32,497 nucleotides of DNA, taken from assembly GCA_029062985.1 (NCBI GenBank), contig JAIDPA010000263.1, positions 1-32,497 on the forward strand. Reading direction: 5' to 3'. Made by a program: the position numbers and the translations under genes. The DNA is from Muribaculaceae bacterium (GTDB lineage Bacteria > Bacteroidota > Bacteroidia > Bacteroidales > Muribaculaceae). Under the pieces are notes generated by a model. It did not search any database. It worked only from the letters and a program-made list of their open reading frames with translations, and was not told the DNA's origin. Shown one piece after another: positions 43 to 28,662 of this stretch (position 1 is the first letter of the stretch; every line of letters begins with the position of its first letter).

Positions 43-123
43 ATGTCAGAACAAGAAAAAAACAGAGAAGAATGCGAACTCCAGAGTCTAATCGCGTGTG
101 CATGTTGGACTGAGAATCCTTAA
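43..123 (+). CDS. Candidate Cys-rich precursor peptide (26 aa)
   Basis: Small ATG-to-TAA ORF of 26 codons just upstream of three radical SAM genes. The first two thirds is hydrophilic and Glu-rich (begins MSEQEKNREE) with one Cys at residue 11. The end has a short Leu/Ile/Ala stretch followed by CACWTENP, giving Cys at 19 and 21 next to Trp22. A charged leader followed by a short Cys/Trp core is what precursors of radical-SAM-modified peptides (for example sactipeptides or ranthipeptides) look like. The nearest promoter-like box is TAAATTTT at 24-31, one base off TAnnTTTG. I do not recognise the sequence from any family; the call rests on composition and position. It could be a chance ORF. 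Confidence 0.45.
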   Translation: MSEQEKNREECELQSLIACACWTENP

Positions 124-209
124 AGTCCAATATCCTCACAATTAATTCGTGTCAGAATCATTTTATGACACCTATCCAGTGACGAGATTCTCAATTGAGC
201 ACTCAAACA

Positions 210-251
210 ATTATTTCTCGGGATTCTATATATAGAATCCCGAGAAATAAT
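210..251. repeat. 42-bp perfect palindrome in the leader of the radical SAM operon
   Basis: Every base from 210 to 230 pairs with 251 back to 231. The GC-containing part reads CTCGGGATTC on the left and GAATCCCGAG on the right, around a TATATATA centre. It lies 21 bp before the ATG at 273 and has no T-run after it on either strand, so it is not a standard intrinsic terminator. It could be an RNA hairpin separating expression of the upstream small peptide from the enzymes, or a dimeric operator. Its presence argues against the upstream TTG start at 195, which would translate through it. Confidence 0.85.
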
Positions 252-272
252 ACGATATTATTGCAAATAACT

Positions 273-1253
273 ATGCAAATATACCTTCTTCTAACAGAGC
301 GATGCAACTTGAAATGTAAGATGTGCATAAGGGGTAATAAATCTAATAAGGAATTATCTTTAGTAGATCTCCAAAATCTTCATTCTATATCTGAGTTTGC
401 GGATCACGATATTGTAATAACCGGTGGTGAACCTACATTATGCAAGGATTTTGTTTCTATTGTTAACTTCCTTAAAGGTAAATGTAAGTCTATATCAATA
501 TGTACAAATGGCACAACTGATTTCTATATAAATAAAGAATTTTTTGATTTCCAAGTTAATATACAGATTTCTATTGATGGGACAGAAGATGTACACAATA
601 CCATTAGGGGAAAGCAATCTTATTCTCGAATAATGCACACTATCTCAAAACTAGAAGAAATAGACATTCCTTATGCTGTTTCAAGCGTTGTTAACAAGAA
701 TAATAGGACATGCATGAAAGAATTAGCTGATATTCTTGGAAATTTAGAATCTTTGAGATGCTGGAATATCTCATACGAAATGCCTTTTGGTCATGCTGTC
801 ATTAATGAAATCATGACAGCTGAGGAATGGAATAACTTTGTAGATGACATGCTCGACTATGTAAACTTTAGAATGAAAATTCAAAAGATGTTTCCTTTTG
901 AATTGTATGACAAGAACAAAGCTAAGTTGGAGGAAATTTTTAAAGGGCGTAGATGTTCAAATTGTGGCAGTGGACAAAACAAAATCTATGTTTATCCTGA
1001 TTTATTTGTATATCCTTGCACTTGTTTGACTGATTTTCGCCTAGGAAACTTGAAAGACTCTTCATTGTCACAAATAATGCAGACAAAATTGGCTTTAAGT
1101 TTTGCTAATTATTCATTGTTACCAGAATCAAAATGTCAAAAATGTGAATATTTAAAGTACTGCAATGGAGGATGTATCGGCATGTCGTATCATTTCTTTA
1201 AGAAAATTGGGCTTGGTGATATTCGTTGTCCCAAATTGCGCGATAAGATATGA
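273..1253 (+). CDS. Radical SAM/SPASM domain protein
   Basis: Radical SAM enzyme that should use a [4Fe-4S] cluster and S-adenosylmethionine to make a 5'-deoxyadenosyl radical. From the ATG at 273 the protein has 326 residues and starts MQIYLLLTERCNLKCKMC, with the cluster-binding CxxxCxxC at residues 11-18. The SAM-binding motif TGGEPTL and a CTNGT strand motif follow. The last hundred residues carry a SPASM layout: CSNCGSG..., a PC pair, CQKCEYLKYCNGGC, then a final Cys near the end, so auxiliary Fe-S clusters are likely. SPASM enzymes commonly modify peptides (AlbA, PqqE) or mature sulfatases. A TTG start at 195 is possible in frame but would run through the palindrome and lengthen the N-terminus beyond what the fold needs. 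It overlaps the next gene by 4 bp (ATGA), so the two are probably translationally coupled. The substrate is unknown. Confidence 0.88.
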   Translation: MQIYLLLTERCNLKCKMCIRGNKSNKELSLVDLQNLHSISEFADHDIVITGGEPTLCKDFVSIVNFLKGKCKSISICTNGTTDFYINKEFFDFQVNIQISIDGTEDVHNTIRGKQSYSRIMHTISKLEEIDIPYAVSSVVNKNNRTCMKELADILGNLESLRCWNISYEMPFGHAVINEIMTAEEWNNFVDDMLDYVNFRMKIQKMFPFELYDKNKAKLEEIFKGRRCSNCGSGQNKIYVYPDLFVYPCTCLTDFRLGNLKDSSLSQIMQTKLALSFANYSLLPESKCQKCEYLKYCNGGCIGMSYHFFKKIGLGDIRCPKLRDKI

Positions 1254-2128
1254 ATATATTCTACTTCAATATTATATACACCTGTAATTCCAATTGTGTG
1301 TTTTGTTACTCTCATAATACGATACACACAGGGCGTATTTTCAATAAAATTTCACCTAAGGAGTTTGTTGAGTATCTCAAATTAAAAAATATTCAGAGCA
1401 AAGATAGAGTAATAATCAACGGAGGTGAACCATTTCTTCATCCTAATATTATTACAATCCTTAAATCTCTTCTAAGGATAGCATGTGAAGTGCTCATATA
1501 CACAAATGGTAGATGTCTTAACACACACGACTTCAGTTTCATGACCAACAACTATCGATTTGTAATTCCTATTCATGGACATAGAACGTTGCATGATAGT
1601 ATAACAAGGTGTAAAGGCAGTTTTGATGAAATGATCTTAGGCTTAGAACATTTATATTCTTACAAATGTAAAGTTGATATTAAAGTGATTCTAAATCCAA
1701 AGATGATAAGTTCTCAACTTGAGTTTAATAATACCTTGCACGCTATTGATGTATTGAAATTTAACAATGCCATTCATATAACTAAAATGGCCAACACAAT
1801 TGTTTCCAGAAAGAATAATATCCCATCTATAAATAATGAATTTGCTTCAAAGTATACGAGATTATTATTTGATCATTTAAAAAATAGAGGTCTCATAATT
1901 AAATTATTTGATACTTGTGTAAAAGAAATAGATATACCGTATTTTAAAAATAACAATAAACCATTTAAGGTGTACTTTAAGGATGTAAAAAATGACTGGG
2001 AGTTTAAATTTTATACTCCAGAAGACAGTTGTAGAGACGAATGTCCGCAAAGAGATTATTGTCAATCCGCAGTAGGAAATTATACTGTACTTGAATATAA
2101 TGGTCAGTTTTATAAAGGACTTGAATAA
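1250..2128 (+). CDS. Radical SAM protein, second of three
   Basis: A 292-residue radical SAM protein. The cluster motif CNSNCVFC is at residues 12-19, NGGEPFLHP matches the GGEP SAM-binding loop, and YTNGR follows at the usual distance. Instead of a complete SPASM domain the C-terminal region has a short cysteine group (CRDECPQRDYC) and ends YKGLE shortly after, so any auxiliary-cluster domain is truncated or divergent. The ATG overlaps the upstream stop (ATGA) and its own TAA overlaps the next ATG (TAATG), which strongly implies one transcript and coupled translation. The substrate cannot be deduced; three different radical SAM enzymes together suggest successive modifications or a complex. 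Confidence 0.85.
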   Translation: MNIFYFNIIYTCNSNCVFCYSHNTIHTGRIFNKISPKEFVEYLKLKNIQSKDRVIINGGEPFLHPNIITILKSLLRIACEVLIYTNGRCLNTHDFSFMTNNYRFVIPIHGHRTLHDSITRCKGSFDEMILGLEHLYSYKCKVDIKVILNPKMISSQLEFNNTLHAIDVLKFNNAIHITKMANTIVSRKNNIPSINNEFASKYTRLLFDHLKNRGLIIKLFDTCVKEIDIPYFKNNNKPFKVYFKDVKNDWEFKFYTPEDSCRDECPQRDYCQSAVGNYTVLEYNGQFYKGLE

Positions 2129-3246
2129 TGAAAGACAAAATCGATCTTACAATTAAGCCTACGATGGGCTGTAATATGAAGTGTAAACATTGTTTTAATG
2201 GTAATGCTTTTGTGACTACTGATATGCTTAAAGTGACTACTGCAATTGAATTAGTCAAGAAAGCATGCAGAGAATATAAAAACATTAAAATTATATTTCA
2301 CGGCGGGGAACCTTCTTTAGCCGGTTTACATTTTTACAAAACATTCTTTGAAAGAATTAAATCCTTTGAACAACAATATGGCACAAGATTCAATATATTA
2401 TTTACCACTAATGGTCTTCTACTCACAGATGAATTTATTGATTTATTGAATGCAAATAGTGTTTTTATAAATATTTCTTTTGATGGACCATATAATGATC
2501 TTCTTAGACAAAAGACAAAGATAGTTCAGGATATAATATTTAAAGTACGAGATAAAGGCGGAAAATTTAGATGCTTTTGTACCTTGTCTAAACAATCAGT
2601 GCCTCGCTTAAAAGAAATTTACGACTGGTTCAAATATAATAAATTAAATTTTAAAACCTTGCCCGTAGAGAGGCGAGGGTATGCAAAGACTAATGATAAG
2701 ATAATTATGGAGCCAACAGATCTTGTCTCGCAGTTTGAGACCGTTTATCGTTATTGGTTAACGGACAAAGAGTGCCAAATTAGTTATTCTACTTTTGAGG
2801 AATTTGCAAATTTAAGAAGAAATGTTCAGTATCGTAAGTTTTGGTTTGGACGTAAGATTGCACTCAATCCTGATGGAAAGCTGTATGTGTTCGGCCGTCC
2901 TAATGATGTGAATTATGAAATTGGCACCCCTTATGATATTGAAAAGATAAGCGAATGTTTTGAATCTAAAGGATATATTCAATATCTAAATACTTTAGAA
3001 AAGATACGTAATAGCCGCTGTAGCAAATGCGAGAGTAGTGTTGTATGCGGAGGAGTAAATATAAATATTGCCCATCTGTATGTTGATGAAATGCAACTTA
3101 TTGATCAGAGTTGTATACAAAGCAATATGATATTTCAACGCATATTAAATGTTAATGATCTAGTAATAACAGATTTTCGCAATGGAAAATCTGATAAATA
3201 TAATTCCTTTATTCAAAATATTTATTCAGATTATATAAATTGCTGA
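2128..3246 (+). CDS. Radical SAM/SPASM-like protein, anSME-like
   Basis: A 372-residue radical SAM protein with cluster motif CNMKCKHC at residues 15-22, FHGGEPSLAG, FTTNGLL and ISFDGP, an arrangement resembling anaerobic sulfatase-maturating enzymes and peptide-modifying SPASM proteins. The C-terminus has CSKCESSVVCGG and a later DQSC, matching the second half of a SPASM domain. The first SPASM Cys pair is not obvious: the NPDGKLYVF region has no Cys, so fewer auxiliary ligands may be present. No sulfatase gene lies in view, so sulfatase maturation is not supported. It overlaps its upstream neighbour by 1 bp and lies 5 bp before the next gene's ATG. Confidence 0.85.
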   Translation: MKDKIDLTIKPTMGCNMKCKHCFNGNAFVTTDMLKVTTAIELVKKACREYKNIKIIFHGGEPSLAGLHFYKTFFERIKSFEQQYGTRFNILFTTNGLLLTDEFIDLLNANSVFINISFDGPYNDLLRQKTKIVQDIIFKVRDKGGKFRCFCTLSKQSVPRLKEIYDWFKYNKLNFKTLPVERRGYAKTNDKIIMEPTDLVSQFETVYRYWLTDKECQISYSTFEEFANLRRNVQYRKFWFGRKIALNPDGKLYVFGRPNDVNYEIGTPYDIEKISECFESKGYIQYLNTLEKIRNSRCSKCESSVVCGGVNINIAHLYVDEMQLIDQSCIQSNMIFQRILNVNDLVITDFRNGKSDKYNSFIQNIYSDYINC

Positions 3247-3251
3247 GACTT

Positions 3252-5234
3252 ATGGACAAATTAAGTATTAAGTATTCAGAAATATCACAAACTATTTTGG
3301 TTGAATATTTTCGTATTTTCGACAATCGAGAAGATTACATTACAGTTTTTAATGATAATAACTTTATTAAAGGTTTTTTAACATTAAAGGATGCATCTGA
3401 ATATTTCTCAAAAGGAACACTGCATTTATCAAAAGTACGTCCAATAAAACATCAAAGCAACTTTTATTCTTATCAAATTGCCTTAAGTGTTTTGCCTGTA
3501 TATGTTAATAAGTTCAGGGATTACTTACTGAATCTTGGAGAGCAGACTATTGGAATCGATGCCAATATTTCAGATTATAACTACATAAGGTCATATATTC
3601 CAGAAATTAATTTTTACAGATGTGAAGATTATCCAGGTATAGAGTTTGACTTAGTAATAATCCTTAGATGTCCGCTATTATTACAACATTATCTGTTTAG
3701 AGAGGCAAAGAGAATAAATATTTCTGACTTATTTGAATCGTTTTTGTTAATCGATTTCTTGCAGTTTGCTAATGATAATAATCTCCAAACCCTCTTCATT
3801 GAAGGACCTGTATTAGATAAACTTCAAAAGACAGAAAAATTTAAATACATTCAATCAAACATCAGTTTAGAACAGATTCTTAAGGATAAAGAGTATTTAT
3901 CTCAATTTTGTTTGGGTGATCGTAATCAAATTGATTATATAATTCATTCAACTTATGGGGTTCTTACAGGAAATAGAGTAATCACAAATGGAATAAGTCT
4001 TCGTTCTGGTTACTTTAGTTCCCCAAAATTGAATGTAAATCATTTTGGGGAACGACGGTCATTGCCCAGCACCAAAGCAGCTTCTAATCCTGATATTTAT
4101 ATTTATGGATCTTGTCTTACATTTGGGTTATTTGCAGAAGATAATAAAACATTTCCATCGTATTTACAGAAATTAATAAATGAATCAACTAAAGTATCTG
4201 GAGTCGTTCATAATCTGGGAGTTAAAGGAAAGGCATTACTAATTAATGATTTACTATTGGCAATGCAATCAGAGGTTAAGAGTCAAGATATATTGGTATT
4301 TGTTTCTCCTATATCAGCATATTCCCTAAAAATTCTTAAGGAAAAGAATATTGAGTATTTTGATTTTTCTGCGTACTTAAATAAAACGAATAATCCAGAT
4401 TGTATTTACCTAAATAATACCTATCATTCAAATGTAACTGTGTATAAAGAGTTGGCAAGGTTTTGTTTTGAACTAATTTCTAATTTTCCAACTTTTTCAA
4501 AACAAATTGAATCTCCATTAAGAATATCTGGTTTTTCATACAATAGGAGAATAGAATTATTTGATCAACACTATATGTGGAAATATATTTTCCTAAAAAA
4601 ATACCTCTCATTTTTAGATTCTCTGTCCCGCCCTTCAACAGAAGTTATTGCTGGAAGTTTGTTAATTACGGCAAATCCGTTCACCTTAGGACATGCTGCA
4701 TTGATTCAAATGGCCCTGAAATATTGTGACTACTTATATATCTTTGTAGTCGAAAATGATTCTTTTCAATATTCTTATATCGAAAGGATGGAGATGGTAA
4801 AGAGATATTGTGAAAATAATCCCAAATGTTGTGTGGTTCCTTCCGGAGATATATGGGGGTCAGAAGATCTATTTCCTGAATATTTCAATAGGAATTATCT
4901 GCACAAAGACATTATAATTTCTCCAGAGGATGCTATTATTTTTGGCAAGTACATTGCTCCGAAACTCAAAATCACCCGACGATTTATTGGAGATGAAAGA
5001 CATGATAGCACTACATCGCAGTACAATCAATACTTGAAGAAATATCTACCGAATTTTGGTATAGAGGTCATTCAATTTGAACGAAAAAAAAATATATTTG
5101 GAGATGAGATTAAAGGAGGGGATGTTAGAAAAATAATTTCAGATAAAGGTATTGATGATGAAATGTTAGTTAACTATCTTCCCTATACCACTATTGAAGT
5201 AATTAAAAGTTTTAAATCATTAATGTCACATTAA
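3252..5234 (+). CDS. Fusion: N-terminal unknown region, SGNH-like domain (Cys variant), citrate lyase ligase-like nucleotidyltransferase
   Basis: A 660-residue protein from the ATG at 3252; an in-frame TTG at 3240 would overlap the previous gene. Residues about 15-60 faintly resemble a CBS motif (FIKGFLTLKDASEYF), and 60-275 is unrecognised. Residues 282-292 read IYIYGSCLTFG, followed by EDNKTFPSYLQKLIN and NLG, the block I layout of SGNH hydrolases (GDSxTxG) but with Cys288 at the nucleophile position and Ser at the Asp position. A His at residue 392 (NNTYHSN) fits the last catalytic block. Residues about 464-660 closely match the C-terminal domain of citrate lyase ligase (CitC): ANPFTLGHAALIQ, FVVENDSFQYSYIERMEMV, IAPKLKITRRFIGDE and GGDVRKI. 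CitC adenylates acetate and acetylates a thiol; by analogy this domain may activate a carboxylate or transfer a nucleotide. It is last in the radical SAM operon. Confidence 0.8.
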   Translation: MDKLSIKYSEISQTILVEYFRIFDNREDYITVFNDNNFIKGFLTLKDASEYFSKGTLHLSKVRPIKHQSNFYSYQIALSVLPVYVNKFRDYLLNLGEQTIGIDANISDYNYIRSYIPEINFYRCEDYPGIEFDLVIILRCPLLLQHYLFREAKRINISDLFESFLLIDFLQFANDNNLQTLFIEGPVLDKLQKTEKFKYIQSNISLEQILKDKEYLSQFCLGDRNQIDYIIHSTYGVLTGNRVITNGISLRSGYFSSPKLNVNHFGERRSLPSTKAASNPDIYIYGSCLTFGLFAEDNKTFPSYLQKLINESTKVSGVVHNLGVKGKALLINDLLLAMQSEVKSQDILVFVSPISAYSLKILKEKNIEYFDFSAYLNKTNNPDCIYLNNTYHSNVTVYKELARFCFELISNFPTFSKQIESPLRISGFSYNRRIELFDQHYMWKYIFLKKYLSFLDSLSRPSTEVIAGSLLITANPFTLGHAALIQMALKYCDYLYIFVVENDSFQYSYIERMEMVKRYCENNPKCCVVPSGDIWGSEDLFPEYFNRNYLHKDIIISPEDAIIFGKYIAPKLKITRRFIGDERHDSTTSQYNQYLKKYLPNFGIEVIQFERKKNIFGDEIKGGDVRKIISDKGIDDEMLVNYLPYTTIEVIKSFKSLMSH

Positions 5235-5269: not shown

Positions 5270-5812
5270 ATGGGATTTTTTGATTTATTCATGAACGATT
5301 CAAATTCAATACCTGTCATATCCGATTCTGACATTCCGTCAGGATCGGGTGGTATTAATAGTGAGAGATACACTTATGGACAATTGCGGCGTCAGCCGAT
5401 TATATCCGAAATTCTGAACCGCATCACCGATCCTGTTGTGAAGCGTTGGGCAGCAGAGTGCAACAGGCGCAATCGTTCGGGGTTCGTTATGCGTAAAGTT
5501 TGCGGTGAATATTGCTTTGATGCATTGCATGTCGGTCCGAAAGTGAAATTGCCTTCAAAGACTGATTTAGTGAAAAAATTCGGTAGGATGCCATCTGCGT
5601 CTGAAATCCGTGAGGTATCTTACTCTTTGTTGCGCGAAGAAATTGCTCGCCAAACAGGTATGAGTGTAGCTAAGGCTGCTTCTGCTATCGGAAATATGCT
5701 CGATTGCGTCCCTCACGAGGATATTTCAGGCTTCGTCTATATGGTACCCAACTGGGCGCACAAATGGTTCCGGCATAAGGGATACGTCTCCCTTATACTC
5801 GGTAACGAATAA
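5270..5812 (+). CDS. Hypothetical protein with possible HNH/EndoVII-like nuclease C-terminus
   Basis: A 180-residue protein without a signal peptide or membrane segment. I do not recognise the whole. The last 35 residues (DCVPHEDISG, VYMVPNWAHKWFRHKGYVS; His149, His164, His169) follow the pattern H...VP...H....H.G seen in HNH/EndoVII-type toxin nucleases, where the histidines bind metal and act in catalysis. This is pattern matching only. It starts 36 bp after the AT-rich operon. Its first codons share the AT-rich composition while the rest is more GC-balanced, so the junction of the AT-rich island may lie near here. No immunity gene is evident next to it; the following gene is on the other strand. 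Confidence 0.6.
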   Translation: MGFFDLFMNDSNSIPVISDSDIPSGSGGINSERYTYGQLRRQPIISEILNRITDPVVKRWAAECNRRNRSGFVMRKVCGEYCFDALHVGPKVKLPSKTDLVKKFGRMPSASEIREVSYSLLREEIARQTGMSVAKAASAIGNMLDCVPHEDISGFVYMVPNWAHKWFRHKGYVSLILGNE

Positions 5813-5893: not shown

Positions 5894-7459
5894 TTATATT
5901 TCCTTAATCTTCCACTCCTCTATGCATCGCGTTTTAGAGGAGAACTCCACTCCTATCTCAAATATCTTCCGGGAGTCGCTTTGATATTTTCTTGAATACC
6001 TCTTATCCTCTATCTGACGCAGTGCCTCCCCAGCCGTATGGTCATACTTCAGTTCTATGATGTAGATGTAATCTTCCGTCTTTATCTCTATGTCGATGCT
6101 TCCGTCCGAAGTGTGTGATTCCGCTTGGGTCTCAAGTCCTATCAGATCTATCAGCAGGAAGAAGGCATTATGGAAATTATTCTCATTCTCCATTTTCAGC
6201 GCATAGTCTATACCTGCGAAATAAGTCTGAAGCGATTTCATCGCCTTTTCGGGATCTCCCAGTATGAATGCCATAACCAAGGTAGTGATAAGATTCTTTA
6301 CCGGCTGACGCTGTGTGGTTACGTAATAGGGCAACAAGGCTTTGAACAATCCCTCTTTTACCTCATTGTTCGGTATACCAAGCTGAAATACCTTTACTTT
6401 GGAATTATAATGCTTGATGGTGAGATATCCTGTCTGGAAAAGAAGTGCCGTAGGATTCGGATTCAGCAAATCAAGACCCTTGAGGTCGGATTCCGTGGTA
6501 TAGCTGTCGAAGAAATCCTTTAGATTAGCATTTATCCTTTTAAGAGACTCGGCTATCAGAGTCGGAAACCCCGTCTCATTCCAATAGTTATTGATTTCGC
6601 TTTTATCCAGACAATTCAACAATGACCAGGGATTATATATCTCACTCTCTTTTTTTGTAAACCTATATCCATCATAATTCTCTTTCAATAATGCCAATCC
6701 TTCTTTGAAATCAATCTCCATATCCTCTGCCAGACGTCTTATCCCCTGTGTGCAGTTGGTAAGAAGTTCTTCGCCTGTAATGCCGCAGACGTCGGCAAAG
6801 GCATTGTCAAAGGTTATGTCATTGATATTATTCAAATCAGAGAATACGGAGAGTTTGCTGAAGCGGCTTACTCCTGTCAGGAAGACAAGCCGAAGATGCT
6901 CCGCGCTGCTCTTGAAGTTGGAATAGAGGGCTGCCAGTTTCTGACGGTAATGCTCAAAATTGTCATCCTTGTTCAGATTCCCTACAAGGGGCTTGTCATA
7001 TTCATCCACCAAGACCACTACCTGCTTTCCCGTCTTCCGATGCGCCCCCTCTATGATGTTGGAAAACCGGGAGGAGTAATCGCCGGCTATATATTCAATC
7101 CCATATTTTTCCTCCCATTTCCTGAATAAATTATCCAGAACATGATCAAGCAGTCCCGGCTCGGCATAGCGTTCCCTGTTAAGGTCAAGGTGCAACACAG
7201 GATATGACTCCCACGTCCAATCTGTGGTGTCTATATATAGTCCCCTGAAAAGCTCCCGCCTACCCTCGAAAAAATACTGCAACGTCGAAAGAAAGAGAGA
7301 CTTACCGAATCTACGCGGGCGGGCAAGAAAATAATATTTCCCTCCTCCTGAAAGAATGGTCTCTATGAAGCGCGTCTTGTCGACATACAGATAACCTCCT
7401 TCCCGGACATTCCTGAAATCCTGCTCCCCTATCGGATATTTTACTCTCTCTTCCTTCAT
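5894..7459 (-). CDS. AAA-ATPase-like/PD-(D/E)XK nuclease family protein
   Basis: A 521-residue protein of the AAA-ATPase_like plus PDDEXK_9 architecture, abundant in Bacteroidales genomes. The N-terminus has the family opening (YPIGEQDFRNVREGGYLYVDKT), a Walker A variant ARPRRFGKS (residues 47-54) and a Walker B VVVLVDEYDKP (Asp152-Glu153). Near the C-terminus DIEIKTEDYIYIIELKYD gives the nuclease-fold core Asp456 and Glu469-x-Lys471. Length is normal and the ORF is intact. The start is supported by an unusually good Shine-Dalgarno for this phylum (CGGAGG, 5 bp before the ATG) and by a -7 box at 7485-7492. The role is not established; members are often repeated in one genome and may be mobile or defence-related. 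Confidence 0.88.
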   Translation of the reverse strand: MKEERVKYPIGEQDFRNVREGGYLYVDKTRFIETILSGGGKYYFLARPRRFGKSLFLSTLQYFFEGRRELFRGLYIDTTDWTWESYPVLHLDLNRERYAEPGLLDHVLDNLFRKWEEKYGIEYIAGDYSSRFSNIIEGAHRKTGKQVVVLVDEYDKPLVGNLNKDDNFEHYRQKLAALYSNFKSSAEHLRLVFLTGVSRFSKLSVFSDLNNINDITFDNAFADVCGITGEELLTNCTQGIRRLAEDMEIDFKEGLALLKENYDGYRFTKKESEIYNPWSLLNCLDKSEINNYWNETGFPTLIAESLKRINANLKDFFDSYTTESDLKGLDLLNPNPTALLFQTGYLTIKHYNSKVKVFQLGIPNNEVKEGLFKALLPYYVTTQRQPVKNLITTLVMAFILGDPEKAMKSLQTYFAGIDYALKMENENNFHNAFFLLIDLIGLETQAESHTSDGSIDIEIKTEDYIYIIELKYDHTAGEALRQIEDKRYSRKYQSDSRKIFEIGVEFSSKTRCIEEWKIKEI

Positions 7460-27370: not shown

Positions 27371-27402
27371 CCGAATAATCGTCACAAATGACAATTATTC
27401 GG
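27371..27402. promoter_or_regulatory. Inverted repeat just upstream of the DUF4143 gene
   Basis: CCGAATAATCGTC (27371-27383) and GACAATTATTCGG (27390-27402) pair at 12 of 13 positions over a 6-bp loop, ending 6 bp before the ATG at 27409. It could be an autoregulatory operator or an RNA structure that hides the start. A near-consensus -7 box GATATTTG lies at 27331-27338. Confidence 0.65.
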
Positions 27403-27408
27403 AATAGC

Positions 27409-28662
27409 ATGATAATAGAAAGAAAAATTTATCTTGACAAAGTTGTAGAAAGCCGACATAACGGAATGATAAAGATTATCACCGGTGTACGCCGAAGCGG
27501 TAAATCTTTTCTTCTGTTCGATCTATTTGCCGATTGGTTGGAAGCAGAGGGTGTTTCTTCTGACCATATCATAAAAATAGATCTGGAAAATCGTAGAAAT
27601 AAGTCGCTCCGCAACCCGGACAATCTATTGGAGTTCATTGATGCTAAAATGATTGATAGAGGGATGTATTATATCCTCATTGATGAGATCCAGTTAGTTG
27701 ATGAGTTTGAAGATGTACTCAACAGTTATCTGAAAATTAAGAATGCCGATGTTTACGTTACGGGCAGTAACGCACGATTTCTGTCTAAGGATGTTATAAC
27801 CACCTTCCGAGGGCGAGGTGAAGAAATAAAAGTATTCCCATTAAATTTCAGGGAATTCATGTCTGCAACCGATAAGAGTACAGAACTGGCTTTTGAGGAG
27901 TTTATGACTTATGGAGGATTGCCTCAGGTATTGGGCTATAAGTCTGAAGAACGAAAGACAGACTATCTGAAAGCATTATTTGCAGAAACCTATATCAGAG
28001 ATATAAAGGAACGTTATAATGTAAAGCATGATGAGGAATTGGAAATTCTACTTGATATTATTTCGTCAAATATCGGCTGTCTGACTAACCCGAGTAAACT
28101 CGCAAACACATTCCTAAGTGAAAAGAAAGTAAAGCTCTCTGACAAGACCATAAAGAATTATCTGGACTATATGTGTGATTCATTTCTCGTTGAGAAATCA
28201 CAACGATATGACATCAAGGGGAAAAAGTATATTGACACACCCTATAAATATTATTTTGTGGATCTTGGCCTGCGCAATGCACGACTGAATTTTCGCCAGC
28301 TCGAAAAGACGCACATGATGGAGAATATTATCTATAATGAACTTCGTGTGAGAGGATTTAATGTTGACGTAGGAATAGTACCTTTGGTAATCCGAGATGA
28401 GAAAGGTAACCAAAAGCGTGTCAGCTATGAAGTTGACTTTGTAGCGAACAAGGGCAATCAGAGATATTATATACAGTCAGCTTACCGACTTGACTCTGAA
28501 GAAAAGTTAGCCCAGGAGCAAAACTCACTTCGCAACGTTGATGATTCGTTTAAGAAGATAGTGATTGTGGGAAATCCTATTTTAGTAGAGAGAGACAATA
28601 ATGGTATCACAACAATGAGCGTGTATGACTTCTTGTTAAAGGAGAACTCACTTGAACTGTAA
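27409..28662 (+). CDS. AAA ATPase with DUF4143 domain
   Basis: A 417-residue protein from the ATG at 27409 (MIIERKIYLDKV, the usual family start). An in-frame ATG at 27388 lies in the loop of an inverted repeat and is less likely. The AAA_14 domain has Walker A GVRRSGKS (26-33) and Walker B YILIDEIQ (Asp92-Glu93), with a sensor-like VTGSNARFLS. A winged-helix-like middle (SNIGCLTNPSKLANTF) follows, then the DUF4143 nuclease-like C-terminus (MMENIIYNELRVRGFNVDVG, then YEVDFVANKG as the E-V-D-F motif). Such proteins are common in gut Bacteroidales and of uncertain role, possibly DNA-related. Intact; a hairpin terminator follows. Confidence 0.9.
   Translation: MIIERKIYLDKVVESRHNGMIKIITGVRRSGKSFLLFDLFADWLEAEGVSSDHIIKIDLENRRNKSLRNPDNLLEFIDAKMIDRGMYYILIDEIQLVDEFEDVLNSYLKIKNADVYVTGSNARFLSKDVITTFRGRGEEIKVFPLNFREFMSATDKSTELAFEEFMTYGGLPQVLGYKSEERKTDYLKALFAETYIRDIKERYNVKHDEELEILLDIISSNIGCLTNPSKLANTFLSEKKVKLSDKTIKNYLDYMCDSFLVEKSQRYDIKGKKYIDTPYKYYFVDLGLRNARLNFRQLEKTHMMENIIYNELRVRGFNVDVGIVPLVIRDEKGNQKRVSYEVDFVANKGNQRYYIQSAYRLDSEEKLAQEQNSLRNVDDSFKKIVIVGNPILVERDNNGITTMSVYDFLLKENSLEL

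Follow-up and report, generated by a model that had tools for sequence, protein, structure and literature searches.

We analysed a 32,497-nucleotide stretch of DNA from a Muribaculaceae bacterium (GenBank assembly GCA_029062985.1, contig JAIDPA010000263.1), hereafter the window. The window is one whole contig (C183) of an assembly of 2.97 Mb in 323 contigs that is 85.81% complete. At its start lies a block of plus-strand genes encoding three radical S-adenosylmethionine (SAM) proteins and a fusion protein, in which an N-terminal part of no recognised fold is followed by an SGNH part and a CitC-like nucleotidyltransferase. The contig's first base lies 42 bases ahead of a 26-codon open reading frame (ORF), MSEQEKNREECELQSLIACACWTENP (43-123, plus strand), which is either a possible precursor or leader peptide or a chance ORF. 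Radical SAM protein 1 is encoded at 273-1253 (longest frame from a TTG at 195), protein 2 at 1250-2128 and protein 3 at 2128-3246, with overlaps of 4 bp (1253/1250) and 1 bp (2128/2128). The fusion begins at an ATG at 3252, 5 bp after the end of protein 3, and runs to 5234 (longest frame from a TTG at 3240). All four large frames are intact. A preliminary description of this DNA had proposed an uncharacterised peptide-modification cluster here; its gene order and coordinates are confirmed, as is its statement that the block is richer in AT than the surroundings, with a GC content of 30.8% across 273-5234 and 42.4% across 5813-32497.

All three radical SAM proteins match PF04055 (Radical_SAM) above the Pfam gathering score, and each carries CxxxCxxC and GGEP. 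The SPASM domain, initially given to all three, is borne out in protein 1, which has PF13186 and the complete Cys pattern. Protein 3 holds a partial SPASM-like Cys set (CX2CX5C) with no Pfam SPASM call, and protein 2 has no SPASM match. The best NCBIfam match is DynA for protein 1 (96.8 bits) and protein 3 (111.9 bits), against a cut-off of 450, and HxsC for protein 2 (65.2 bits; cut-off 267.9). The three proteins share the radical SAM core motifs with DynA, HxsB/HxsC (mentioned in passing in PMC9062424) and other SPASM maturases, and protein 1 also shares the complete SPASM pattern. Unlike those maturases, they fall below every listed cut-off and come with no match to a precursor family. The NCBIfam scores indicate general kinship with peptide maturases but place none of the three in a family. 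Counted from the likely starts, the first Cys of CxxxCxxC is residue 11 in protein 1 (37 by the TTG numbering), 12 in protein 2 and 15 in protein 3, and so there is no room for an N-terminal recognition domain. For protein 1 we infer that the ATG at 273 is the better start, because the frame from the TTG at 195 crosses a 42-base palindrome.

The three radical SAM proteins might also be read as viperin-like, in which case the block would be an anti-phage system making modified nucleotides. All three proteins touch the pVip models of PADLOC (best 57.9 bits), and protein 2 touches solved viperins (expectation value (E) 0.0016). However, these matches are confined to the common radical SAM core, and SPASM families give proteins 1 and 3 higher scores. 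We therefore rejected this defence reading, which is very unlikely.

The C-terminus of the fusion (residues 472-653) matches Citrate_ly_lig (PF08218; E 4.9e-39) in Pfam, so the CitC half of the SGNH/CitC fusion named in the preliminary description stands. The domain has approximate limits of 4641-5207, and its predicted structure resembles phosphopantetheine adenylyltransferases. HIGH nucleotidyltransferases are marked by HxGH and ISxxR-type motifs. In the fusion the first is kept as NPFTLGH, and IKGGDVR replaces the second, [IV]SASxVR. The form [IV]xA[ST]xxR was found in 46 of 58 rows compared; the other 12 are the window, a shortened copy of the window, eight rows where the search pattern picked up a different site and two where it failed.

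CitC itself converts acetate and ATP to acetyl-AMP, after which a thiol is acetylated, and it also has an N-terminal acetyltransferase part. Like CitC (TIGR00124, PF08218), the fusion has a C-terminal HIGH nucleotidyltransferase domain (residues 452-656) with HxGH kept. Unlike CitC, it scores below the TIGR00124 cut-off (122.8 against 262.1 bits, covering only profile positions 124-327 of 335), an SGNH-like part comes first, no acetyltransferase family is reported and the second motif is altered. Three radical SAM genes lie upstream of it, and no citrate lyase-like genes lie beside it. Across the bacterial family, 52 of 297 genomes, the source genome among them, match the fusion. We fetched 20 stretches, and 16 have a nearby ORF starting RLRRTMMFVPGNNP, which we take to be the citrate lyase beta chain. 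A further stretch (L044) shows its first letters only, two end at contig ends (L041, L045) and one (L043) has only a different citrate-lyase-like ORF. Since 16, probably 17, of the 20 have a citrate lyase-like neighbour, most family matches to the fusion are ordinary CitC homologs. A role in citrate metabolism was considered and rejected: the window lacks a citrate lyase-like neighbour, and matches across the family are confined to roughly residues 450-660. On sequence comparison, the fusion is not a citrate lyase ligase.

Relatives of the fusion were found by a pattern scan of genome contigs. The patterns were made from the fusion and from two relatives trimmed to what follows HxGH, so that ordinary CitC would be avoided, and they see part of the family only. 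From 123 pattern matches, ten fusion-relative loci were confirmed: one each in an uncultured member of the Clostridia (L118), an Oscillospiraceae genome (L119) and Smac51 (L120, a tetratricopeptide repeat (TPR)-CitC protein with a different N-terminus), and seven in Vibrionaceae (L121-L127). The scan missed four further loci, L138-L141. In the order to which the L119 genome belongs, eight of 197 genomes, that one included, match at 1e-12; the matches are of fusion type in G1178 (L138), G1144 (L119) and G1281 (two), and G1326 has two fusion halves in overlapping frames. Only the L118 genome matched at 1e-20 among 95 genomes of its order, and within the four-genome family of G1178 only G1178 has a fusion match. 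Relatives are 22-29% identical to the window fusion in the full alignment and 30-32% (L138-L140) in local BLAST. The clostridial fusions at L118, L138, L139 and L140 and the Vibrionaceae fusions share the window's order of SGNH then CitC. The Vibrionaceae proteins are about 600 residues long with a TPR-like N-terminus (weak Pfam matches, L121 only). In the open-licence literature we found no name or published description for an SGNH/CitC fusion family.

SGNH enzymes are defined by four blocks: I (GDS), II (G), III (N) and V (DxxH). Pfam does not call this part in the window protein. When a profile of the part was built from the window and nine relatives, its two best matches in the PDB were SGNH-type esterases (E 0.0029 and 0.0031) with blocks I and V aligned; the profile has nine PDB matches up to E 1, two of which are unrelated proteins. 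The predicted structure models are weak (predicted local distance difference test (pLDDT) 53.8 and, for the SGNH model, 61.9). In a Foldseek search with the SGNH model, the first 15 rows are mostly such esterases, the best at E 3.4e-3 and none at 0.001. The middle part of the fusion is thus likely to have an SGNH fold on profile and model comparison, so this half of the earlier domain call is probably right although Pfam is silent on it. A CBS domain in the N-terminal part had seemed likely by eye and may be present, but Pfam gave none in the window protein and hhalign with L119 and L138 aligned the SGNH block only. L119 itself has a weak Pfam CBS match (E 0.0051), below cut-off.

Within the SGNH domain (approximately 4086-4484), Cys replaces the nucleophile Ser of block I (GSC). 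By eye, the Asn of block III is not kept and the His of block V is, and the window has Asn where L118 and L119 have an Asp, four residues before that His. The nucleophile site reads GAC in L118, GPC in L119 and L138, GTC in L139 and L141, and ETC in L140. Cys therefore stands at this site in the window and in 6/6 clostridial fusions, three of which (L139-L141) are closely related to one another. Ser is found at all seven Vibrionaceae loci (GSS, GAS or GTS).

The top Foldseek match of the SGNH model was CgnD (E 3.4e-3, template modelling (TM) score 0.30). According to PMC10070186 and PMC10885120, CgnD removes the leader in crocagin synthesis, and the latter classes it in the SGNH/GDSL superfamily. 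An SGNH fold can thus serve a peptide pathway, and this precedent makes leader removal an alternative role for the fusion. The match is weak and the model poor, and CgnD is described as a Ser enzyme, unlike the window protein.

The small ORF bears on the peptide substrate that the preliminary description proposed. In a ribosomal peptide pathway the 26-residue product would be the precursor, the radical SAM enzymes would modify its Cys/Trp end (CACW), and the fusion would acylate it or remove its leader like CgnD. The ORF is present as described, but its length is not above chance: an ATG ORF of at least 26 residues arose in 374 of 1000 dinucleotide shuffles of bases 1-272. One that also had at least three Cys arose in 13 of 1000 shuffles, which favours a precursor by a criterion chosen after the ORF had been seen. 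The arrangement also favours it, since a small ORF, a structured spacer and then maturase-like genes follow one another. The leader region (1-290) folds with z -6.42, and 0 of 200 shuffles were equally stable. Leader folding and repeat analysis place the perfect palindrome (210-251, strand-neutral; two 21-nucleotide arms with no spacer) in the stretch that separates the small ORF from the gene for radical SAM protein 1. With no T-run behind it, the palindrome does not qualify as a simple terminator, and it is absent from the terminator scan list. A spacer with such structure, flanked by a small gene and enzyme genes, would fit a peptide operon but is no proof of one.

The best NCBIfam scores (DynA and HxsC) and CgnD's place at the head of the Foldseek list likewise speak for a peptide. 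Against it, the ORF has no match in four family libraries, all listed NCBIfam families are below cut-off (the best 25 of 78, 49 and 64 matches), the radical SAM proteins lack room for a recognition domain, and the visible block contains neither a protease nor an exporter gene. The preliminary description asked whether a similar small ORF lies upstream each time. In the gap upstream of the fusion, nine of 13 loci, including all five glycan-type loci introduced below, have no ATG ORF of at least 20 residues. The remaining four hold eight such ORFs (two at L119, one at L123, four at L124 and one at L127). Three of the eight, at L119, L123 and L124, have two Cys (23-38 residues), and the one at L123 ends in Trp; these ORFs may be due to chance. 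They can be cited for a peptide, but in our judgement they are incidental. The small peptide as substrate thus has no support other than its position, and a peptide pathway is a serious but doubtful possibility.

The neighbourhoods of the fusion relatives point elsewhere. At L118, Pfam identifies GT2, polysaccharide pyruvyl transferase, FrhB and epimerase proteins near the fusion. At L138 the neighbours are alcohol dehydrogenase, an IspD-type cytidylyltransferase, ribulose-phosphate epimerase, GT2 and three Radical_SAM proteins, one with a NeuD-like N-terminus. FrhB and an FkbH protein lie near the fusions at L139 and L140, which belong to one genome, and further sugar genes at L139, L140 and L141 were recognised by eye only. 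We read five of the six clostridial fusion loci, from four genomes, as surface-polysaccharide loci. Because fusion relatives lie in such loci, a glycan or envelope-linked scaffold is somewhat more likely than the 26-residue peptide. With only 42 bases of contig ahead of the small ORF, this preference is slight.

Two of these loci have features of their own. Stretch L144, which adjoins L138, encodes two further CxxxCxxC proteins (motif only). In total, five CxxxCxxC proteins are encoded across L138:5389-10125 and L144:900-4419. By eye their N-termini look Rossmann-like, and glycosyltransferases are scattered among them; this polysaccharide-type locus may hold a radical SAM/glycan system that has not been described. 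At L140:11437-14664, a 1075-residue FkbH protein has an SGNH-like segment near its C-terminal end (E 0.002; GGS at block I). The L140 locus thus has two types of acyl-loading domain, each tied to an SGNH domain.

A conserved neighbourhood for the four genes, suggested earlier as a check, did not emerge. Each search used one protein or a part of one. Across the roughly 1,430 genomes covered, each probed with only one or some of the proteins, the four-gene set did not turn up a second time. The N-terminal part of the fusion (residues 1-458) matched its own genome only among 393 genomes of the order, as did the whole fusion at E 1e-10 among 395 genomes of the phylum. Protein 2 matched 89 of the 393 genomes of the order, including its own (best other E 1.9e-11, 24% identity), and protein 3 matched 21 of 111 same-genus genomes, including its own (best other 30% identity). 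Protein 1 was searched in plasmids and viral contigs only, and had 28 matches of 21-31% identity to viral contigs. Against viral contigs, proteins 2 and 3 and the fusion, each alone, gave nothing useful, nor did the N-terminal part of the fusion by tblastn against plasmids and phages. Two alignment scans were equally fruitless. Plasmid radical SAM matches were about 20-28% identical, among the matches listed, and in four plasmid radical SAM loci viewed no fusion gene was annotated alongside. We found no report of the radical SAM/SGNH-CitC combination in the open-licence literature searched, a search that mostly leaves out subscription papers.

The block's composition and its downstream border bear on its origin. 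GC content at third codon positions is 0.23-0.29 in the four block genes, 0.44 in the next gene (5270-5812) and 0.37-0.57 in 12 sampled genes beyond 5894. The gene at 5270-5812 has homologs in seven of 110 other same-genus genomes (E up to 1e-10). DNA similarity in the short homolog stretches begins at 5302 (L147), at 5318 (L146, L148) or later; as it begins no earlier than 5302, none of these stretches shares the block. A more distant homolog (G223) aligns from residue 1 of the protein. Because of the GC contrast, and because DNA similarity with same-genus stretches is limited to the downstream gene, the block looks horizontally acquired; misassembly is also possible. No neighbouring contig was found when bases 1-260 were sought in the source genome.

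The block might instead be a remnant from the end of a larger locus, decaying or put to new use, in which the fusion has lost adenylation and the original product is no longer made in this genome. The altered second CitC motif, the change of Asp to Asn in the SGNH part, the long branch of the CitC domain, the contig edge and the best identity of only 30% for protein 3 in other same-genus genomes are what such a remnant might show. Four intact frames with tight overlaps and complete radical SAM core motifs speak against it, and we consider a remnant distinctly unlikely.

Beyond the block, the 180-residue product of 5270-5812 has no family match. Another genome of the genus (G243) carries one near-complete and two partial copies of its gene close together (L146, L153, L154), which suggests a repeatedly copied accessory gene. 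Near the acquired block, the window encodes an AAA-ATPase-like/PDDEXK_9 protein (5894-7459), and a second such protein (AAA_14/DUF4143) lies at 27388-28662. In an Rfam search of the window, a tRNA was the sole match.

From the observed gene order, domains, nucleophile-site Cys and neighbours of the relatives, we infer each catalytic step and the substrate as follows. The block would be an acquired biosynthetic module in which the fusion acylates a scaffold tailored by the radical SAM enzymes, the scaffold being somewhat more probably a glycan or envelope-linked metabolite than the peptide; we hold this reading tentatively, at somewhat less than an even chance. The CitC HIGH-type domain would activate a small carboxylic acid as an acyl-adenylate. 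The Cys of the SGNH domain would take up the acyl group as a thioester, and the domain would then transfer it to a scaffold hydroxyl (or thiol). Because a Cys-SGNH domain stands before the CitC domain, thioester formation followed by transfer is the simplest scheme, and SGNH would take over from the acetyltransferase part that citrate lyase ligase has at its N-terminus. Radical-based changes to the same scaffold (oxidation, epimerisation, dehydration or cross-linking) would be the work of the three radical SAM enzymes. The scaffold, a glycan or envelope-linked metabolite, would be made by genes past the contig end. The enzyme classes named in the preliminary description, and its general idea that radical SAM tailoring and CitC-type carboxylate activation act on one substrate, stand.

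Several observations weigh against this acylation module. The chief argument against working adenylation is the altered second CitC motif, which means that the reaction may be lost or changed in the window fusion. A tree built from 26 CitC domains joins that of the window to those of L119 and L138 with weak support (77/88), and its place is unsure because its branch is very long (3.26 changes per site). Pfam finds no glycosyltransferase or sugar-nucleotide genes in the visible 5 kb, unlike at L118 and L138, and the surroundings of the relatives show no synteny with the window. The L138 locus shares radical SAM genes and the nucleophile-site Cys with the window, but its radical SAM proteins seem to belong to a different subfamily, with N-termini that look Rossmann-type by eye and, in one, a NeuD match. 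The NCBIfam families listed for the window proteins are mostly peptide maturases, though all below cut-off. L119 is not a glycan locus, with an FkbM methyltransferase on the opposite strand and nothing else telling, and the Vibrionaceae fusion genes lie in mixed contexts. On balance, the closest functional description of the block is an acyl-decoration module combined with radical SAM tailoring, and filing it as a polysaccharide locus would be premature. The same chemistry could also serve a peptide pathway, in which a self-loading Cys-SGNH/adenylate-forming fusion would be charged with a free acid and acylate a short Cys/Trp peptide without coenzyme A or a carrier protein; that combination is unlikely.

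By seemingly combining activation and transfer of a free acid in one polypeptide, the SGNH/CitC fusion would be a compact solution. If this is true, it would be a route to acylation of glycans or peptides that does not need coenzyme A. That the fusion accompanies radical SAM genes both in the window and at a single glycan-type locus of the Clostridia suggests that surface polymers undergo radical chemistry.

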